DNA from: Catellatospora methionotrophica
Lineage (GTDB): Bacteria; Actinomycetota; Actinomycetes; Mycobacteriales; Micromonosporaceae
Direction of reading: 5' to 3'
Assembly: GCF_011297335.1 (NCBI RefSeq)
Contig: NZ_JAAOTJ010000013.1
Coordinates: 62,001-126,000, forward strand
DNA: 64,000 bases
The position numbers were made by a program, and so were the translations under genes. The first letter of the stretch is position 1. The number at the start of each line of letters is the position of its first letter. Below are positions 2-8,285 of the stretch, one piece after another. Below the pieces are notes generated by a model, which made no database searches, was not told the origin of the DNA, and saw only the letters and a list, made by a program, of their open reading frames with translations.

Positions 2-475
2 GTGGAGCTGGCCGTGGTGATCGGGCGGCGGGCGCGCTACCTGGACTCGCCCGCGCAGGCGCTGGAGCACATCGCCGGGTACGTGCTGTCCAACGACGTG
101 TCCGAGCGGGACTTCCAGCTGCACCAGTCGGGTGGGCAGTGGTCCAAGGGCAAGTCGTGCGAGACGTTCCAGCCGCTGGGGCCGTGGCTGGTCACCCCGG
201 AGGAGGTCGGCGACGTGCAGGGGCTCGGGCTGCGGTCGTGGGTCAACGGCGAGGTCCGGCAGGACTCGAACACCAAGGACATGATCTTCGACGTGGCGTA
301 TCTGGTCTGGCACCTGTCCCAGTACACGGTGCTGGACCCGGGTGACGTCGTGAACACGGGCACCCCGCAGGGCGTGGGCCTGTCCGGCCGGTTCCCGTAC
401 CTGGCCGAGGGCGACGTCGTCGAGGTCGAGATCGACGGCCTCGGCCGCCAGCGCGTAACCATGACCCAAGCCTGA
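2..475 (+). CDS. Fumarylacetoacetate hydrolase family protein, C-terminal part
   Basis: This is the 3' part of a gene cut by the left window edge; the true start lies outside. The 157 visible residues match the catalytic core of the FAH family: SNDVSERDFQ, the GKSCETFQPLGPW stretch (active-site lysine and loop) and the C-terminal NTGTPQGVG signature that binds the carboxylate/metal region. Family members hydrolyse or isomerise beta-diketo acids and related sugar-acid intermediates. Next to an SDR and an L-fuconate dehydratase, the best inference is 2,4-diketo-3-deoxy-L-fuconate hydrolase, which yields pyruvate and L-lactate. It is convergent with the SDR gene. Substrate is inferred from context only. 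Confidence 0.88.
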   Translation: MELAVVIGRRARYLDSPAQALEHIAGYVLSNDVSERDFQLHQSGGQWSKGKSCETFQPLGPWLVTPEEVGDVQGLGLRSWVNGEVRQDSNTKDMIFDVAYLVWHLSQYTVLDPGDVVNTGTPQGVGLSGRFPYLAEGDVVEVEIDGLGRQRVTMTQA

Positions 476-717: not shown

Positions 718-1455
718 TCAGCGGATGAGGCGGAGGCCGCTCATGCCGCCGTCCACCGCGAGGGAGGTGCCCGTCGTCGCGCCGGAGCGGGGGGAGGCGA
801 GGTAGGCGACGGCCTCGGCGACCTGGTCGGCGGTGACCAGGCGGCCGGTGGGCTGGCGGGCGGCTAGTCGGCGCTTCTCCTCGGCGGGGTCGTCGGCACC
901 GGCGAGCAGGCGGGCCACCCACGGGGTGTCGACGGTGCCGGGGGCGACGCTGACCACGCGGATGCCCTCGCCGACCAGGTCGGCGGCCATGGCCAGGGTC
1001 AGCGCGTGCACCGCGCCCTTGGTCGCGGAGTACACGGCGCGGTTCACGAGCCCGGCCGTGGCGGCGATCGAGGAGATGTTGACGATCACGCCGCTGTTCG
1101 AGCCGCGCAGGTACGGCAGCGCGGCGCGGCTGGCGCGGGCGATGCCGACGACGTTGACGTCGAGGCAACGTTGCCAATCGTCGTCGGCGGCCTGCTCGAC
1201 CGTGCCGACCGCGCTGATCCCGGCGCAGTTGACGAGGATGTCGAGGCCGCCCAGCGTGCCGGCGACCAGGGCCATGGCGTCGTCCATGGGAGCGGTCACG
1301 TCGGCGGTGACGGCCAGGTGGCGGCCGCCCCCGGCGGGGGTGCGGTCGAGCACGGCGACCGCCGCGCCGCGGTCGGCGAGCAGGTCGGCGACTGCCGCGC
1401 CGATGCCGGACGCGCCACCGGTCACGGCGGCGACCAGGCCTGTGTACTCAGTCAA
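718..1455 (-). CDS. SDR family oxidoreductase, probable 2-keto-3-deoxy-L-fuconate dehydrogenase
   Basis: A 245-residue classical short-chain dehydrogenase. TGGASGIG (about residues 12-19) binds the dinucleotide, NCAG is at 76-79, the catalytic serine is in NISS near 128, and YSATK supplies Tyr142 and Lys146. The C-terminus has the usual SLAVDGGMS. The start codon is TTG, overlapping the end of the upstream dehydratase gene by 8 nt; a GGAG at 7 nt upstream supports it and implies translational coupling. NAD-dependent oxidation of 2-keto-3-deoxy-L-fuconate at C4 is inferred from the neighbours, since SDR substrate cannot be read from sequence. Confidence 0.9.
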
Positions 1456-2755
1456 TTTTCCACTCCGGGCCGTCGGGGAAGGTATAGCGGGCCAGGGACT
1501 CCTCGTGCATTCTGGCCGAGAAGCCGGGCGCTTCGGGAGCGGCGTAGCGGCCGTTCACGATGCGGACCGGGTCAGCGAAGTGCTCGTGGAGGTGGTCCAC
1601 ATATTCGATCATCCGGCCGTCCAGCGTGGCGGCCACCGAGGTGTAGTCGAAGAACGACAGGTGCTGCACCAGCTCACACAGCCCGACACCGCCCGCGTGC
1701 GGGCAGACCGGCTTGCCGTACGCGGCGGCCAGCAGCAGGATCGCCAGGTTCTCGTTGACGCCGCCGACGCGGGCGGAGTCGATCTGCACCACGTCGATCG
1801 CGTCGGCCTGCAGCAGCTGCTTGAACATGATGCGGTTGTGCACGTGCTCGCCGGTGGCGACCCGGATCGGCGTGCCGCCGGGGCCGGACCGGGACAGCCC
1901 GGTGCGGATCGCGGCGTGGCCGAGGATCTCGTCGGGGCTGGTCGGCTCCTCGATCCAGTACGGGTCGAGGTGGCCCAGGGCGCTGACCCAGCCGATCGCC
2001 TCGTCGACGCCCCACCGCTGGTTGGCGTCGATGCCGATAGGGAAGTCCGGTCCCAGCGCCTCGCGGGCGGCGGTGAACCGGCGCAGGTCGTCGTTCAGGT
2101 CCGCGCCGACCTTCAGCTTGACCATGGAGAAGCCGTCGGCCACGGCGCGCAGCGCGCGCCGGGTGACCTTCGCGTCGTCGTAGCCGAGCCAGCCCGCCGA
2201 GGTGGTGTACGCCGGAAAGCCGGTGGCGGTGATCTGTTCGGCGCGGGCGGTCTTGCCCGTGGCGCGGTCGGTGAGCAGGTCGCGGGCGGCGTCGGGGGTG
2301 AGCGCGTCGGTGAGGTAGCGCCAGTCGACGCAGTCCACGACGGTGTCCGGCGTCAGGTCGGTCAGGTAGCGCCACAGGGGCAGCCCGGCCCGGCGCGCGG
2401 CCAGGTCCCAGGCGGCGTTGACGACGGCCCCGGCGGCCAGGTGCATGACGCCCTTCTCCGGGCCGAGCCAGCGCAGTTGCGAGTCGTGCGTGAGCCGGCG
2501 GCCGAACTCGCCGAGGTCGAGGGTGTCCAGGTCCTGGCCCACCACGTACGGTCGAAGCGCTTCGATCGCCGCGGCGCAGACGTCGTTGCCCCGCCCGATG
2601 GTGAAGGTGAAGCCGTGCCCGGCGGTGTCGCCGTCGGTGACGAGCTCGACGTAGGCGGCCGAGTAGTCGGGATCCGGGTTCATCGCGTCAGATCCGTCGA
2701 GGTGACGGGAGGTGGGGAAGCGGATGTCGCGTACGCGCAGATCAATGATCTTCAT
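1448..2755 (-). CDS. Enolase-superfamily L-fuconate dehydratase
   Basis: The 435-residue product has the length and layout of L-fuconate dehydratase (FucD/ENOSF1 group): an N-terminal capping domain, then a barrel with the KxK pair in MVKLKVG (Lys213, Lys215), metal ligands Asp243, Glu269 and Glu303 (DANQRW, WIEEP, GEHVHN), and the general-acid/base His353 in CPHAGG. It dehydrates L-fuconate to 2-keto-3-deoxy-L-fuconate. The ATG at 2755 was chosen because the frame reads further upstream only through promoter sequence and the antisense lutA. It is first in a two-gene minus-strand operon with the SDR and is divergent from lutABC. Confidence 0.88.
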
Positions 2756-2879: not shown

Positions 2880-3563
2880 GTGCGGATCGCACTGTTCGTC
2901 ACCTGTCTTAACGACGCGCTGTTCCCGCAGGCCGGGATCGCCACGGTGACGGTGCTGGAACGGCTCGGCCACACGGTCGCGTTCCCGGCCGCGCAGTCCT
3001 GCTGCGGCCAGATGCACGCCAACACCGGCTACGCCGCCCCCGCCCGGCAGCTCGAACGCCTCACCGAGGACGCGTTCGCCGGTCAGGACGCCATCGTCTC
3101 GCCGTCCGGCTCCTGCGTCGCCCACCTGCGCGCGCACACCGCACTGCCCGTCTACGAACTGTCCGAACTGCTCGTCGACGTGCTCGGCGTGACCGACGTG
3201 GGCGCGACCTTCCCGCACCGGGTCACCTATCACCCCACCTGCCACGGCCTGCGCATGCTCCGCCTCGGCGACCGCCCCACCGCGCTGCTGCGCGCCGTCA
3301 GGGGCCTCGACCTGGTGGACCTGCCCGAACCCGAGCAGTGCTGCGGCTTCGGCGGCACCTTCGCCCTCAAGAACGCCGCCGTCTCCGGCGCGATGCTCGC
3401 CGACAAGTGCGCCAGCGCCGCGTCGACCGGCGCGGAGTACCTGGCGGCGGCCGACAACTCCTGCCTGGCCCACATCGGCGGCGGCCTGGCCCGCCATCCC
3501 GGCGCGCCGAAGCCGATCCACTACGCCGAGATCCTCGCGGCCACCGGAGGCATCCGTGAGTAG
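2880..3563 (+). CDS. lutA: Lactate utilization protein A (Fe-S, cysteine-rich CCG domains)
   Basis: The 227-residue product has the two CCG-type cysteine-rich domains of LutA/YkgE: CCGQMH near residue 41 and CCGFGG near 153, with HPTCHG between. LutABC oxidises L-lactate to pyruvate and passes electrons into the respiratory chain. The GTG start is preceded by GGAAGGAGG at good spacing. It is the first gene of a plus-strand operon whose genes overlap or nearly touch (lutA, lutB, lutC, AKR, AOR). Its place opposite the fuconate genes suggests it disposes of lactate released by fucose breakdown. Confidence 0.93.
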
Positions 3564-4989
3564 ACAGCTGCCGATCGTCGCGATCACGCCGTTCCCGCAG
3601 GCGGCCGCGCACGAACTGGCCGACACACAGTTGCGGGCCAACCTGGGGCGGGCCACGCGGACCATTCGCGACAAGCGGGCGCGGGTGGTCGCCGAGGTCG
3701 CCGACTGGGAACCGATGCGGGACCGGGCCGCGGCCGTCAAGGACGAGGTGCTGGACAACCTGGACGAGCTGCTGGCGCGGTTCGAGGCGGCGGCGGTCGC
3801 GGCCGGAGCGACGGTGCACCATGCCGCCGACGCGGCGCGGGCCAACGCGATCGTCACCGAGCTGGTGCAGGAACAGCAGGCCGACCACGTCGTGAAGATC
3901 AAGTCGATGGCGACCCAGGAGATCGGGCTCAACGAGGCGCTGGAGGCCGCGGGCATCACGCCGATCGAGACCGACCTCGCCGAGCTGATCGTGCAGCTCG
4001 CCGACGACACCCCGTCGCACATCCTGGTCCCGGCGATCCACTACAACCGCAGCCAGATCCGGGAGCTGTTCGCGCGGCGGATGCCGGGGTTCACCGCGAC
4101 GTCCGACGAGCCCGCGGTGCTGGCGGGGGCGGCGCGCGAGTACCTGCGGCGGACGTTCCTCGCGGCGAAGGTCGCGGTGTGCGGGGCCAACTTCGCCATC
4201 GCGGAGACCGGATCGCTGGTGATCGTCGAGTCGGAGGGCAACGGGCGGATGTGCCTGACGCTGCCGGAGACGCTGATCGCGGTCGTCGGCGTGGAGAAGC
4301 TGCTGCCGCGCTTCGCCGACCTCGGCGACTTCCTGCGGCTGCTGCCGCGCTCGTCGACCGGCGAGCGGATGAACCCGTACACCTCGATCTTCACCGGGGT
4401 GACGGCGGGCGACGGGCCGCAGCGGCTGCACATCGTGCTGCTGGACAACGGCCGCACGCAGGTCGCGCAGGACCCGGCCGGGCGCGCTGCGCTGCGCTGC
4501 ATTCGCTGCTCGGCCTGCCTGAACGTGTGCCCGGTGTACGAGCGCGCGGGCGGGCACGCCTACGGCTCGGTCTATCCCGGTCCGATCGGGGCGATCCTGT
4601 CGCCGCAGCTCACCGGGCAGGACGCGGGCTTCAACAAGACGCTGCCGTTCGCCTCCACGCTGTGTGGGGCGTGTTACGACGTCTGCCCCGTGAAGATCAA
4701 TATCCCGGAGATCCTGGTACACCTACGTCAGACCGGCCCGAAACCGGCCGCCGAACGGGCCGCGATGTCGACGCTGAGCTGGGTGATGCGCGACCGCCGC
4801 AGGTGGCGGGCCGCGCTGCGGGCAGCCCGCTCGGGCAGCGCCCCCCTGCGGCTGATCGCCCGCCGCCACGGCGGCACGCTGCGCCGCGCACCGTGGCCGC
4901 TGTCGGCGTGGACGGCACACCGGGACGCGCCGCTGCCCGCGGCCGAGTCCTTCCGCGACTGGTGGAGGCGCACCCATGAACAGTCCTGA
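3556..4989 (+). CDS. lutB: Lactate utilization protein B (Fe-S oxidoreductase)
   Basis: The 477-residue LutB has an N-terminal LUD/DUF162-like fold and a ferredoxin-like domain with two 4Fe-4S motifs: Cys315, Cys318, Cys321 and Cys325 (CIRCSACLNVC), and Cys370, Cys373 and Cys377 (CGACYDVC). The arrangement and length are typical of LutB/YkgF. The GTG start overlaps the end of lutA by 8 nt, indicating coupled translation. The C-terminal ~90 residues are arginine-rich and less conserved. It forms the lactate-oxidising complex with LutA and LutC in the cytoplasm. Confidence 0.94.
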   Translation: MSRQLPIVAITPFPQAAAHELADTQLRANLGRATRTIRDKRARVVAEVADWEPMRDRAAAVKDEVLDNLDELLARFEAAAVAAGATVHHAADAARANAIVTELVQEQQADHVVKIKSMATQEIGLNEALEAAGITPIETDLAELIVQLADDTPSHILVPAIHYNRSQIRELFARRMPGFTATSDEPAVLAGAAREYLRRTFLAAKVAVCGANFAIAETGSLVIVESEGNGRMCLTLPETLIAVVGVEKLLPRFADLGDFLRLLPRSSTGERMNPYTSIFTGVTAGDGPQRLHIVLLDNGRTQVAQDPAGRAALRCIRCSACLNVCPVYERAGGHAYGSVYPGPIGAILSPQLTGQDAGFNKTLPFASTLCGACYDVCPVKINIPEILVHLRQTGPKPAAERAAMSTLSWVMRDRRRWRAALRAARSGSAPLRLIARRHGGTLRRAPWPLSAWTAHRDAPLPAAESFRDWWRRTHEQS

Positions 4990-5521
4990 CCACGCGGCTC
5001 CGGGGCTGCCCGGCCTGTTCGCCGAGCGGGCGGGCGACTACCGCGCCGGGATGCACCACTGCACCGAGGACGAACTGCCCGGCGTGCTGGCCGGGCTGCT
5101 GGCTGCCGCCGCCAAGGTGGTCCTGCCGCCGGGTGTGCCCGCGGCGTGGACCAGCGGCCTGGCCGTGCCGACCCTGCTCGACGATCGCGGGCTGACCGCC
5201 GCGGACCTCGACGAGGCGGGGCTGTCCGTGCTCACCGGGTGCGCGGTGGCGGTCGCCGAGACCGGCACGATCGTGCTCGACGCCGGGCCGGGGCAGGGCA
5301 GGCGGCTGCTGACGCTGGTCCCGGACCACCACGTCTGCGTCGTACGCGACGAGCAGATCGTGGCCGACGTGCCCGACATGATCACCGCGCTGCCCGATCC
5401 CACCCGTCCCCTGACGATGATCTCGGGGCCGTCGGCGACCAGCGACATCGAGCTCAACCGGGTCGAGGGCGTACACGGGCCGCGCCGCCTCGACATCGTC
5501 TGCGTACACCCCGCGATCTGA
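4976..5521 (+). CDS. lutC: Lactate utilization protein C (LUD domain)
   Basis: The 181-residue LUD-domain protein shows the diagnostic AETGTIVLDAGPGQGR segment and the late SGPSATSDIELNRVEGVHGP motif, including the conserved SDIE and GVHGP. The ATG start overlaps lutB by 14 nt. It is the third subunit of the LutABC L-lactate oxidation system. A 14-nt gap separates it from the aldo/keto reductase, so the operon continues. Confidence 0.92.
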   Translation: MNSPDHAAPGLPGLFAERAGDYRAGMHHCTEDELPGVLAGLLAAAAKVVLPPGVPAAWTSGLAVPTLLDDRGLTAADLDEAGLSVLTGCAVAVAETGTIVLDAGPGQGRRLLTLVPDHHVCVVRDEQIVADVPDMITALPDPTRPLTMISGPSATSDIELNRVEGVHGPRRLDIVCVHPAI

Positions 5522-5535
5522 GAGGCAGTCCCACC

Positions 5536-6531
5536 ATGACCCACCTGCTCGGCGGCTCCGCGGTCGCGGTCAGCGCGCTCGGTTTCGGCGCGGCCTCCAT
5601 CGGCAACCTCTACCGGGCCGTCCCGGACGAGCAGGCCGCCGCCACCGTCGAGGCCGCCTGGCAGGCGGGCATCCGCTACTTCGACACCGCACCGCACTAC
5701 GGCCTGGGCCTGTCCGAGCAGCGGCTGGGCCGGGCCCTGGCCGGGCGTCCGCGTGAGCAGTACGCCGTCTCCACCAAGGTCGGCCGGATCCTCGTCGACG
5801 AGCCGGGCGGCGTGGGCGACGACCTGGCCAACGGCTTCGCGGTGCCCGCGACCCGGCGGCGGGTGTGGGACTACACCGCCGCCGGGGTGCGGCGCAGCAT
5901 CGAGCACAGCCTGACCCGGCTCGGGCTGGACCGGATCGACCTCGTGCTCATGCACGACCCGGAGGAGAGCCCGGACCCGGACCAGGTGCTGCGCGAGGCG
6001 TACCCGGCGCTGGCCGCGCTGCGCGCCGAGGGCGCCGTCGGCGCGATCGGCGTCGGCTCCAAGGACCCGGCGACCCTGGCCCGGTTCGCCACCCGGACCG
6101 ACGTGGACGCGCTGATGGTCGCGGGCCGCTACACGCTGCTGGAGCAGCCCGCACTCGACGACATCCTGCCCGCCTGCGCCGCGCGCGGCGTCGCGGTGCT
6201 CAACGTGGGCGTGTTCAACAGCGGCCTGCTCGCCGTCGAGTGGCCCGACGAGTCCCGGCCGTATGAGTACGGCACCGCGCCCGCCGGCGTCCTGGCCCGC
6301 GCCCAGGGCATCGCCGCCGCGTGCCGCCGCCACGGCGTGACCCTGCCGCAGGCGGCGCTCGCGTTCGCCGCGGCGCACCCGGCCGTGGCGTCGATCGTGG
6401 TCGGGGCGGGCAAACCCGACCACGTCGACCGCAGCGCCGCCTGGTTCGCCCTGCCCGCGCCGCCGCCGCAGCTGTGGGCGGAACTGGTGGAGACGGGCCT
6501 GCTACGGCCGGACGCTCCCGTCCCGGCATGA
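5536..6531 (+). CDS. Aldo/keto reductase, probable L-fucose (D-threo-aldose) 1-dehydrogenase
   Basis: The 331-residue aldo/keto reductase carries the family tetrad: Asp50 and Tyr55 in FDTAPHYG, Lys81 in STKVG and His140 in LVLMHDPEE. The C-terminal IVVGAGKPDHV segment binds the NADP phosphate/adenine region. The FDTAPHYGLGLSEQRLG block is the type seen in D-threo-aldose/L-fucose and pyridoxal dehydrogenases. Oxidation of L-fucose (or L-galactose, D-arabinose) to the lactone fits the neighbouring fuconate dehydratase. The ATG at 5536 follows GAGGCAG. The stop overlaps the AOR start (ATGA). The lactonase step is not visible in the window. Confidence 0.85.
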   Translation: MTHLLGGSAVAVSALGFGAASIGNLYRAVPDEQAAATVEAAWQAGIRYFDTAPHYGLGLSEQRLGRALAGRPREQYAVSTKVGRILVDEPGGVGDDLANGFAVPATRRRVWDYTAAGVRRSIEHSLTRLGLDRIDLVLMHDPEESPDPDQVLREAYPALAALRAEGAVGAIGVGSKDPATLARFATRTDVDALMVAGRYTLLEQPALDDILPACAARGVAVLNVGVFNSGLLAVEWPDESRPYEYGTAPAGVLARAQGIAAACRRHGVTLPQAALAFAAAHPAVASIVVGAGKPDHVDRSAAWFALPAPPPQLWAELVETGLLRPDAPVPA

Positions 6532-8285
6532 CCTGTCTGCACCTGGACCTGGCCGGCGGCGGCCAGTACAGCGAGCCGGAGGTCGGCTGGGGCGGGCCGC
6601 TGCAGGCACTGTCCACCTTGCGCAAGGCGATCGACGGGCCGGTCGACCCCGCCGATCCACGGCTGCCGGTCGCGCTGGTCACCAGCACCGTCGCGGGGCT
6701 GGGCGCGGTCGGCACCGCGCGGTGCGCGGCCGTCGGCGTGTCGCCGCTGTCCGGCGCGGTCGCCGAGACCCGGGCCGAAGGCCCCTTCGCGGCGGGACTG
6801 CGCGCGGCGGGCATCACCGGCATCAGCCTGACCGGGGCCGCCGAGCAGCCCTCGTACGTCGTCGTGGAGGCCGGGCGGGCCGCCGTGCTCCCAGCGGGCG
6901 AGCTGTGGGGCATGACGACCGGACAGGCCACCGATCTGCTGCTGGCCAGGCACGGGCCCGACGCCGCCGTCGCCGTGATCGGGCCCGCGGGGCAGGCCGG
7001 TGCGCGCTACGCCAATGTGGTCACCTGCCGGTCGTTTCCGCTGCCCCGGCTCGGGTTCGGGGCGGTCCTCGGAGCCCGGCGGATCAAGGCCGTCGTGTGC
7101 GTGCCGCCCGGCAGCGAGACCGCCGGACGCGCCCCGTGGCCGCACGACGTGCTCGCGGCGCAGGCGCTGTTCACGGCGTACCGCCGGGAGATGCCGGACC
7201 ACCCGCTGGCCGGATGGCAGTTCGCGGTCCCGGGTTTCGGGGCCTGGCCGGGCACGTCGGCCGCACCGGGCACGGCCGCCGTACGCAACTTCGCCGACAC
7301 CGCGACCGCCCCCGCGTCCTGGCCCGGCCTGCACCCCGACCGATACGCGGCATTCCTGAACTGGTCCGGTGGCTGTCCGGGCTGCCCCAACGACTGCGTC
7401 AAGGGGTACGCGGGCGCGGGGCTGCACCAGGAGGCCGTGGCGATGCTCGGCCCGAACCTCGGCATCGGCGACCTCGGCGCCATCCTCGCCGCCAACGCCC
7501 GGTGCCAGGAGCTGGGGCTCGACCCGGTGTCGCTCGGCGGCACGCTGGCGTGCGTGTTCGAGGCGGCTGCGCGCGGGCCGCTGCCGTCCTGGCTCGACCT
7601 GCCCGCAGGAGCCGGGTTCGGGGCGGCGGACCTGCTGGCCGAGCTGGTCGAACGTGCCGCACGTCCCGGTCATCCGCTGGGGCAGGGGGCCACCGCGCTG
7701 GCCGCCCGGCTCGGCGTGCCCGAGCTGGCGATGACGTGCCGGGGCGTCGAACTGCCGCCGTTCGATCCGCGCGTCCAGCCCGGCCTGGGCCTGATGTACG
7801 CGGCCGCGCCGTTCGGCCCGCGCTACGACGCCGTCGAGCACGACCTCGACTTCGATCCGGTGTACGGCCTGCCGCACTGCTACGACGAGGCCGAGCGGAT
7901 CGGGCTGTCCGTGCCCGCACCGGCGTCCACTCTGGACGTCGCCCGCACGTCGCGCCTGGCCGACCTGTGGAGCGGCCTGGACGCGCTGCTGATCTGCCCG
8001 TACGCCAGCACCCCGACCCGCCCGCTGACCCTCGACCGGATCTGCGCGCTGGTCCGGGCCACCTCCGGCCGCCCGATCAACCCCGAGGGAGTGTTCGCCC
8101 TCGGCCGGGACCGGCTGCGCGCCCAGCAGGAGATCAACGACCGCCTCGGCGTGGCCGCCGCGACCCTGCCCGCCCGCTTCTTCGACGAACCCGTCACCAC
8201 CGGCCCCCACCGCGGCGCGGTCCTCGACCGTACGGCGTTCACCACCGCCGTCGAGACGCTGCGCACCCACTGGCGGACCCGTTGA
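6528..8285 (+). CDS. Tungsten-type aldehyde ferredoxin oxidoreductase (AOR) family protein
   Basis: The 585-residue protein aligns by eye over the full length of AOR enzymes, which use a tungsten bis-pyranopterin and one 4Fe-4S cluster to oxidise aldehydes to acids. The cluster ligands are Cys283, Cys286 and Cys290 (GCPGCPNDC) with a fourth at Cys490 (LLICPYAS), close to the P. furiosus positions 288/291/295/494. The LGFGAVLGARRIKAVV block matches the pterin-binding RGGLGAVMGSK region but lacks its Arg-Gly-Gly. The usual N-terminal GGRGLG is also altered (GWGGPLQA). It overlaps the AKR stop by 4 nt, so it is co-translated in the lut/fucose operon. No ferredoxin or FAD partner subunit follows. 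Confidence 0.85.
   Translation: MTCLHLDLAGGGQYSEPEVGWGGPLQALSTLRKAIDGPVDPADPRLPVALVTSTVAGLGAVGTARCAAVGVSPLSGAVAETRAEGPFAAGLRAAGITGISLTGAAEQPSYVVVEAGRAAVLPAGELWGMTTGQATDLLLARHGPDAAVAVIGPAGQAGARYANVVTCRSFPLPRLGFGAVLGARRIKAVVCVPPGSETAGRAPWPHDVLAAQALFTAYRREMPDHPLAGWQFAVPGFGAWPGTSAAPGTAAVRNFADTATAPASWPGLHPDRYAAFLNWSGGCPGCPNDCVKGYAGAGLHQEAVAMLGPNLGIGDLGAILAANARCQELGLDPVSLGGTLACVFEAAARGPLPSWLDLPAGAGFGAADLLAELVERAARPGHPLGQGATALAARLGVPELAMTCRGVELPPFDPRVQPGLGLMYAAAPFGPRYDAVEHDLDFDPVYGLPHCYDEAERIGLSVPAPASTLDVARTSRLADLWSGLDALLICPYASTPTRPLTLDRICALVRATSGRPINPEGVFALGRDRLRAQQEINDRLGVAAATLPARFFDEPVTTGPHRGAVLDRTAFTTAVETLRTHWRTR

Follow-up and report, generated by a model that had tools for sequence, protein, structure and literature searches.

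The enzymes of the aldehyde ferredoxin oxidoreductase (AOR) family, also called the AOR/WOR family, have been sorted into 92 WOR clades, and according to their 2026 classification the physiological role of a member has been defined in only five of these (PMC13328260). Four second-shell residues of the active site, Thr243, Glu313, Tyr427 and His448, are described as conserved in AORs (PMC12096430; PMC13328260). Here we consider an AOR-family gene carried by a 64,000-nucleotide stretch of the genome of Catellatospora methionotrophica (contig NZ_JAAOTJ010000013.1, positions 62,001 to 126,000; hereafter the window), in the product of which three of these four residues are replaced and which stands among genes for L-fucose catabolism. 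As the predicted active site looks rebuilt and related genes stand beside fucose genes in quite different bacteria, the enzyme probably catalyses a sugar-related reaction. Our preferred reading, which we put forward tentatively from sequence comparisons, is that this single-subunit member of the family may be an optional accessory of L-fucose catabolism that acts, linked to ferredoxin, on a carbonyl of the fucose pathway, most likely C1 of the sugar.

The frame is open throughout and both Pfam domains of the AOR/WOR large subunit are well above their cut-offs (AFOR_C 158.8 bits against 27, AFOR_N 130.1 bits against 29.8), while phmmer against the PDB retrieves 9mqx (E 1.5e-48) and the Pyrococcus furiosus AOR, 1aor (E 1.6e-46). 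This gene is the single AFOR_C match in the whole genome. A first-pass annotation, made from the letters alone, had reported an AOR-family gene with the four 4Fe-4S cysteines and a 4-nt overlap with the stop codon of an aldo/keto reductase (AKR) gene, and both statements are confirmed: the cysteines align with those of 1aor and are invariant across 13 diverse members of the subclade described below, and the ATGA or GTGA overlap is retained in six of seven named relatives, whereas in the seventh (L006) the stop is placed 5 nt upstream of the assigned start. The annotation was also right in seeing no dedicated Fe-S or FAD subunit, as none was found among the genes called around the AOR gene, LutA and LutB excepted; its neighbours are the AKR, lutABC and fucose genes, and not the Fe-S and FAD subunit genes that accompany a Class III WOR (AorABC). 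Its further statement that the AORs of aerobes need such subunits must be given up as a general rule, since BmWOR, from an obligate aerobe, is described as monomeric, ferredoxin-linked and active in air (PMC13328260). An AlphaFold2 model, built on an alignment of the window protein to seven relatives at 69-89% identity, was unusable (mean pLDDT 42.3, pTM 0.33).

At the positions of Thr243, Glu313, Tyr427 and His448 the window protein has Phe, Glu, Phe and Tyr, respectively, the assignment at 448 depending on the local alignment, and Glu313 is thus the only second-shell residue of the aldehyde-oxidising WORs to be retained. Among 24 orthologue rows (the window, 22 other Micromonosporaceae and G1008), Phe is found at 243 in 23, with a deletion in the remaining one, and Glu313, Phe427 and Tyr448 are found in all. 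Thirty-four rows of other actinobacterial AORs were aligned as controls; these were selected from loci L010-L082 as open stretches that contain CxxCxxxC, so that their cysteines are uninformative, and two loci (L069 and L081) gave no row. Thr243 is present in 31 and Glu313 in 29 of these rows, position 427 is Tyr in 24, His in eight and Met in two, and position 448 is His in 32 and Tyr in two. Taken alone, residue 427 therefore discriminates poorly, and Tyr at 448 also occurs outside the subclade; Glu313, in turn, is not universal within it, being Leu in G1081 and Gln in G1118. What distinguishes the subclade is a motif near 448, GPxYxxxEHDxDF, in which Gly430, Pro431, Tyr433, Glu437, His438, Asp439, Asp441 and Phe442 are invariant in the 13 diverse members, and which was found in none of 25 control AOR neighbourhoods and is likewise missing from the five solved structures for which an alignment was inspected.

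The altered pterin-binding motifs of the first-pass annotation are real in part. Five positions of 1aor are changed (Asn93, Gly95, Arg182, Ala183 and Asp338 to Arg, Glu, Phe, Pro and Gln), but five others are kept (Arg76, Arg186, Gly341, Asp343 and Asp489), and positions 93, 182 and 183 vary among ordinary AORs in the same alignment table, so that changes there are less telling than those of the second shell. A maximum-likelihood tree was computed from 62 of the 67 rows (five close Catellatospora rows were left out), and in it the 26 motif-bearing rows fall on one side of a branch with support of 100/99 and 100% of 200 bootstraps. Since the program warns of long branches meeting at the join between Micromonosporaceae and family f12 (low-GC actinobacterial drafts, see below), and at G1081, a single origin of the EHDxDF subclade is supported by these sequences but not secure.

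The association with fucose genes was followed across the Micromonosporaceae, in which an AOR match is found in 25 of 354 genomes. In 24 of these 25 the gene, or a C-terminal fragment of it in two (G484 and G416), lies in the same stretch as the L-fuconate dehydratase gene (FucD) and other fucose genes, the exception being Rhizocola (G734), where it directly follows lutABC and its start overlaps LutC. Within the 24, the AOR gene follows the AKR gene in nine (all Catellatospora), stands between FucD and the short-chain dehydrogenase (SDR) gene in 12, and follows FucD with no window-type SDR adjoining in three (G450, G454 and G416). In all eight genes checked outside Catellatospora and Rhizocola there is a 10-nt overlap between the AOR start and the stop of the gene before it, which is FucD in the three such loci read, and in L088, L095 and L099 the AOR gene is part of a longer gene run headed by sugar ABC transporter genes (by eye and tblastn). 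The conserved trait is thus membership of the fucose cluster and not the identity of the coupled gene. The fucose-operon setting and the functional link to a sugar pathway proposed by the first-pass annotation are therefore upheld, with a linkage across genomes stronger than a single sequence could reveal. The search that it proposed, for homologues next to lutABC and AKR in other actinomycetes, came out in part: the gene follows AKR in the nine genomes above, and the stretch read includes lutABC in 14 of the 25 genomes and lacks it in 11. The position at the end of lutABC, true in the window, is hence lineage-specific, and LutB, which had been suggested as electron partner, is not a general one.

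In many of these fucose operons the transporter genes are accompanied by a second gene of the enolase superfamily, encoding 361 aa with about 29-31% identity to FucD, and G1118 has a similar gene (L143 9758-10846).

In the window itself, lutABC lies directly upstream of the AKR gene, the top PDB relatives of which are L-galactose dehydrogenases; L-fucose is 6-deoxy-L-galactose. The gene of the FAH-family hydrolase, whose best model is 2,4-didehydro-3-deoxy-L-rhamnonate hydrolase, starts 367 nt ahead of the window and is preceded by genes for a GntR regulator and an amidohydrolase resembling L-fucono-1,5-lactonase (NF052480 198.4 bits, below the cut-off of 400). Dehydrogenase, lactonase, dehydratase, SDR and hydrolase, which act in this order on the way from L-fucose to pyruvate and lactate, thus stand together as in a non-phosphorylative L-fucose cluster, FucD being assigned firmly, the AKR and SDR by family and context, and so too the lactonase and hydrolase, which score below their equivalog cut-offs. 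Fucose routes are described as ending in pyruvate and either lactate or lactaldehyde (PMC10444878), and the cluster apparently encodes a complete route of the lactate-forming kind, which leaves no obviously missing step for the AOR.

The subclade extends well beyond the Micromonosporaceae. Six low-GC actinobacterial drafts of family f12 (G071, G004, G147, G093, G019 and G047) carry a subclade AOR near an L-fucose isomerase (FucI) gene, in the order sugar-type ABC transporter genes, AOR, one or two UroD/MtaA-like genes and isomerase; in G004 the transporter is represented only by its ATPase and one end of the binding protein. The isomerase of G071 exceeds its cut-off (TIGR01089 1032.7 bits against 850) and the other five were recognised by tblastn similarity; likewise, both UroD-like genes of G071 match Pfam URO-D and those of the other drafts were recognised by similarity. 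In a seventh genome, G243, an AOR copy with EHDxDF is split across two contigs. In G1081 (1.3 Mb), whose family has an AOR match in three of 151 genomes, one of them very weak, only 2 nt separate the AOR gene from a lactonase-like gene; a FucD relative (50% identity) is transcribed divergently from the pair, a sugar transporter is close by, and the AKR of the window found no match. In G1008 and G852 the AOR gene is accompanied by genes for an SDR, a lyase, pyruvate-dehydrogenase-E1-like proteins and a fuconolactonase-like protein (210.5 bits in G852, cut-off 400), with sugar transporter genes also in G1008, and the stretches read gave no match to the window-type AKR and FucD. A fuconolactonase-like gene without an AKR match in these three genomes means that the AOR could be the sugar-oxidising step there. 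In G1118 the gene lies by those of a zinc alcohol dehydrogenase, an enolase-type dehydratase (29% to FucD), an SDR and a sugar ABC transporter (by eye). A plasmid search with the FucI-linked AOR gave 82 records, of which the one inspected, a match in Nonomuraea gerenzanensis, carries the motif.

These several different gene settings agree on the linkage to fucose. FucI, FucD, lactonase-like or FAH genes are present in 15 of 17 subclade neighbourhoods, Rhizocola and Nonomuraea being the two without, and in none of the 25 control AOR neighbourhoods, four of which match the sugar ATPase weakly. This comparison is to be read with its sampling in mind: the 17 were hand-chosen and include six of the 25 Micromonosporaceae, relatives among them are not independent, the fucose query genes were drawn from subclade neighbourhoods, and among the 15 the match of G1118 is weak and the lactonase of G1008 lies in an adjoining stretch (L145).

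The gene is not there by chance, since its pairwise dN/dS against six relatives in Catellatospora and Rhizocola is 0.21-0.37 (AKR 0.31-0.45, LutC 0.12-0.35). An intact copy is present in eight of 11 Catellatospora genomes. The copy of G704 (L094 8871-10346, also L119) lacks 156 nt through a clean in-frame deletion, by which the first two Fe-S cysteines are gone while the remainder stays open, and the copies of seven g240 and g2 genomes are about 60 residues shorter. Of the 354 Micromonosporaceae genomes, 293 have a FucD match at 1e-120, a count that may include related dehydratases. Purifying selection together with repeated loss indicates that the AOR gene is useful yet dispensable.

As for the cofactor, the genome encodes one MoaA, two MoeA-type proteins and the molybdate binder ModA, whereas WtpA was matched only below its cut-off, at the ModA gene, and TupA was not searched for, so that the label "tungsten-type" given by the first-pass annotation is not borne out. 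Among 36 genomes checked, two of which (G483 and G485) have no intact AOR, MoaA is present in 33 and MoeA in 34; G147 is without MoaA only, and G1081 has both, but beside an operon resembling nitrate reductase by eye. No Mo/W-cofactor riboswitch was found in L086, which covers window positions -11999 to 8000 and ends before the 3' end of the AOR gene.

On our preferred reading, the protein would be a Class I-like single-subunit enzyme, would have one [4Fe-4S] cluster besides a predicted bis-pterin centre with Mo or W, and would hand its electrons to soluble ferredoxin, as characterised Class I enzymes do. The likeliest substrate would be the C1 carbonyl of L-fucose or of a related aldose, converted to the acid or its lactone in parallel to the NAD(P)-dependent AKR and the lactonase, with low-potential electrons kept as reduced ferredoxin, and the changed second shell would be an adaptation to a bulky polyhydroxylated substrate. 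As the aldehyde/acid couple is reported to lie near the ferredoxin potential, at about -500 mV (PMC13328260), oxidation of the open-chain sugar could save electrons that the AKR would give to NAD(P), and an optional energy-saving bypass of this kind would fit both the conservation and the loss of the gene. A further and more speculative possibility is that the separate EHD-type branch has shifted from aldehydes to intact sugars, oxidising the anomeric carbon of L-fucose (or reducing the acid or lactone) with ferredoxin and without His448, Tyr427 and Thr243, in actinobacteria of very different lifestyles.

Several observations weigh against an oxidation of L-fucose. The pathway already has an AKR and a lactonase, and complete clusters function without the AOR: nine fucose clusters, hand-picked and not randomly drawn, have no intact copy (by eye and tblastn), seven having none at all (G485, G529, G527, G468, G417, G514 and G667), G483 a fragment of 31 residues and G484 one of about 70. 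Copies in Rhizocola and Nonomuraea are outside any fucose cluster in the stretch read. Because the protein keeps only one of the four second-shell residues that mark aldehyde-oxidising enzymes, the aldehyde oxidation in sugar catabolism foreseen by the first-pass annotation is uncertain, while the link to a sugar pathway stands. The f12 genomes use an isomerase for the aldose, with which an AOR oxidising L-fucose would compete; this FucI neighbourhood is poorly explained and lactaldehyde oxidation fits it equally, which holds down our confidence. Two of the f12 drafts listed as 98% complete, G004 (L116) and G047 (L123), in which the subclade AOR is the sole match at 1e-70, have neither MoaA nor MoeA; this may reflect a gap in the draft, a cofactor from elsewhere or an enzyme without pterin. 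Cofactor genes were considered as proof of pterin use and are not decisive, G483 and G485 having them without an intact AOR and G004 and G047 the reverse.

In a first alternative, the AOR would be an L-lactaldehyde:ferredoxin oxidoreductase turning lactaldehyde from an aldolase route, such as the one that follows L-fucose isomerase, into L-lactate, which LutABC would oxidise to pyruvate. Lactaldehyde or lactate is the product common to the fucose routes (PMC10444878), so this would unite the FucD and FucI settings; the AOR directly follows lutABC in Rhizocola, and G450 and G454 have FucD and AOR with no FAH or window-type SDR gene in the stretch read, as expected if an aldolase is used. We nevertheless hold it to be unlikely: 21 of the 24 fucose-linked genomes show a FAH or SDR gene that belongs to the lactate-forming route, so that lactaldehyde would not be a main product there, no aldolase gene was identified in the fucose clusters, the AOR stands beside lactonase-like genes in G1008 and G852, and the second shell differs from that of small-aldehyde enzymes.

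The replacement of Thr243, Tyr427 and His448 in all comparable rows, with a new invariant EHDxDF block in their place, would also suit another redox step of the pathway, in which a sugar acid or lactone might be reduced, or a different carbon oxidised, with Tyr433, Glu437, His438 and Asp439 as a new acid-base set. The family is described as including benzoyl-CoA reduction, which involves no aldehyde, and a sulfonate-oxidising enzyme (PMC13328260), and acid reduction is reported as possible for AORs (PMC6365974). Most subclade members retain Glu313, however, and we give this alternative only a small chance. A general role in clearing reactive aldehydes that form during growth on sugars, not tied to any one step of a pathway, agrees with the optional nature of the gene and with the detoxifying role assigned to several Class I enzymes (PMC13328260), but seems improbable given the tight linkage to fucose genes in several lineages, against none of 25 controls, and the changed second shell. 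Decay of the enzyme, or its recruitment to another purpose after loss of the metal centre, could account for the fragments in G484, G483 and G416, the deletion of two Fe-S cysteines in G704, the shorter g240 and g2 copies and the absence of MoaA and MoeA from G004 and G047, but is most improbable with dN/dS values within the AKR and LutC range and four cysteines and an EHDxDF block invariant in 13 diverse members.

Table 1. Coordinates of the features discussed (window positions unless a locus is named).
Feature	Position	Strand	Basis
FAH-family hydrolase, 3' part	2..475	+	NF053535 284.4 bits, below cut-off 500
SDR, probable 2-keto-3-deoxy-L-fuconate dehydrogenase	718..1455	-	Pfam SDR; role from context alone
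L-fuconate dehydratase (FucD)	1448..2755	-	2hne E 1.8e-178
LutA-like, two CCG domains	2880..3563	+	domain search
LutB-like	3556..4989	+	LUD, Fer4_8, LutB_C; TIGR00273 432.8 bits, slightly below cut-off 444.8
LutC-like	4976..5521	+	LUD domain, gene order
AKR, probable L-fucose dehydrogenase	5536..6531	+	PF00248; best PDB match L-galactose dehydrogenase 9w6y E 4.7e-41
AOR/WOR-family large subunit, 585 aa	6528..8285	+	Pfam AFOR_N and AFOR_C, 1aor match
ATGA, 4-nt overlap of AKR stop and AOR start	6528..6531	+	TGA 6529-6531, ATG 6528-6530
Cys283-x2-Cys286-x3-Cys290, three predicted [4Fe-4S] ligands	7374..7397	+	aligned to 1aor Cys288/291/295
Glu302, equivalent of catalytic Glu313 (P. furiosus AOR)	7431..7433	+	Glu in 24/24 orthologue rows
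Signature GPRYDAVEHDLDF replacing RGGCH(448) block	7815..7853	+	invariant positions in 13 members
Cys490, fourth predicted [4Fe-4S] ligand	7995..7997	+	aligned to 1aor Cys494
Second enolase-superfamily gene	L088 18166-19251; L095 16879-17964; L099 1002-2087; L102 13433-14518		
UroD/MtaA-like (corrinoid methyltransferase-type) genes between AOR and FucI	L115 9546-11984; L120 724-3147; L121 7359-8606; L122 6318-8735; L116 4385-5632		

Outside these features, an Rfam ASdes sRNA match (60.2 bits, cut-off 40) was recorded 7.9 kb before the window (L086 4085-4152, + strand), adjoining a gene that resembles, by eye, an acyl-ACP desaturase.

Among the matches listed from the open literature (subscription papers not being searchable), no title or abstract opening links AOR to fucose, although "aldehyde ferredoxin oxidoreductase" and "fucose" do co-occur in two open papers; the terms fucose, sugar, actinobacter- and actinomycet- do not occur in the main text of the 2026 WOR classification (PMC13328260). 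Gene linkage here names a pathway, a few candidate substrates and a candidate residue set for a branch of the AOR family, and, if our preferred reading is true, actinomycetes would have an AOR-family enzyme that acts on a free sugar and shows how the active site of the family can be re-tooled.

Compared with known systems, the cluster corresponds to the non-phosphorylative L-fucose pathway, which we take to be of the Xanthomonas type, with AKR, lactonase-like, FucD, SDR and FAH genes all present; to our knowledge, that pathway has no AOR-family step. Aromatoleum AorABC (Class III) has the same AOR-type catalytic subunit (8c0z is among the PDB matches) but requires Fe-S and FAD subunits, whereas no genes for such subunits were seen around the window AOR. 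GAPOR and the GOR of C. bescii are likewise described as family members that work in sugar breakdown with ferredoxin (PMC13328260), but they act on glyceraldehyde 3-phosphate in glycolysis, GOR with a second subunit. The window protein scores 19.6 bits with the NCBIfam model GAPOR_Arch, whose cut-off is 1300. Catellatospora is presumably an aerobe. BmWOR of Brevibacillus massiliensis (Class I), likened here by description and not by alignment, is similarly a single subunit without partner genes in an aerobic host, but is reported to prefer aromatic aldehydes (PMC13328260). The P. furiosus AOR (Class I WOR) shares with the window protein both AFOR domains, the lone large subunit, the four Fe-S cysteines and the equivalent of Glu313, whereas the window protein has Phe, Phe and Tyr in place of Thr243, Tyr427 and His448, an added EHDxDF block and a gene that stands among those of sugar catabolism.

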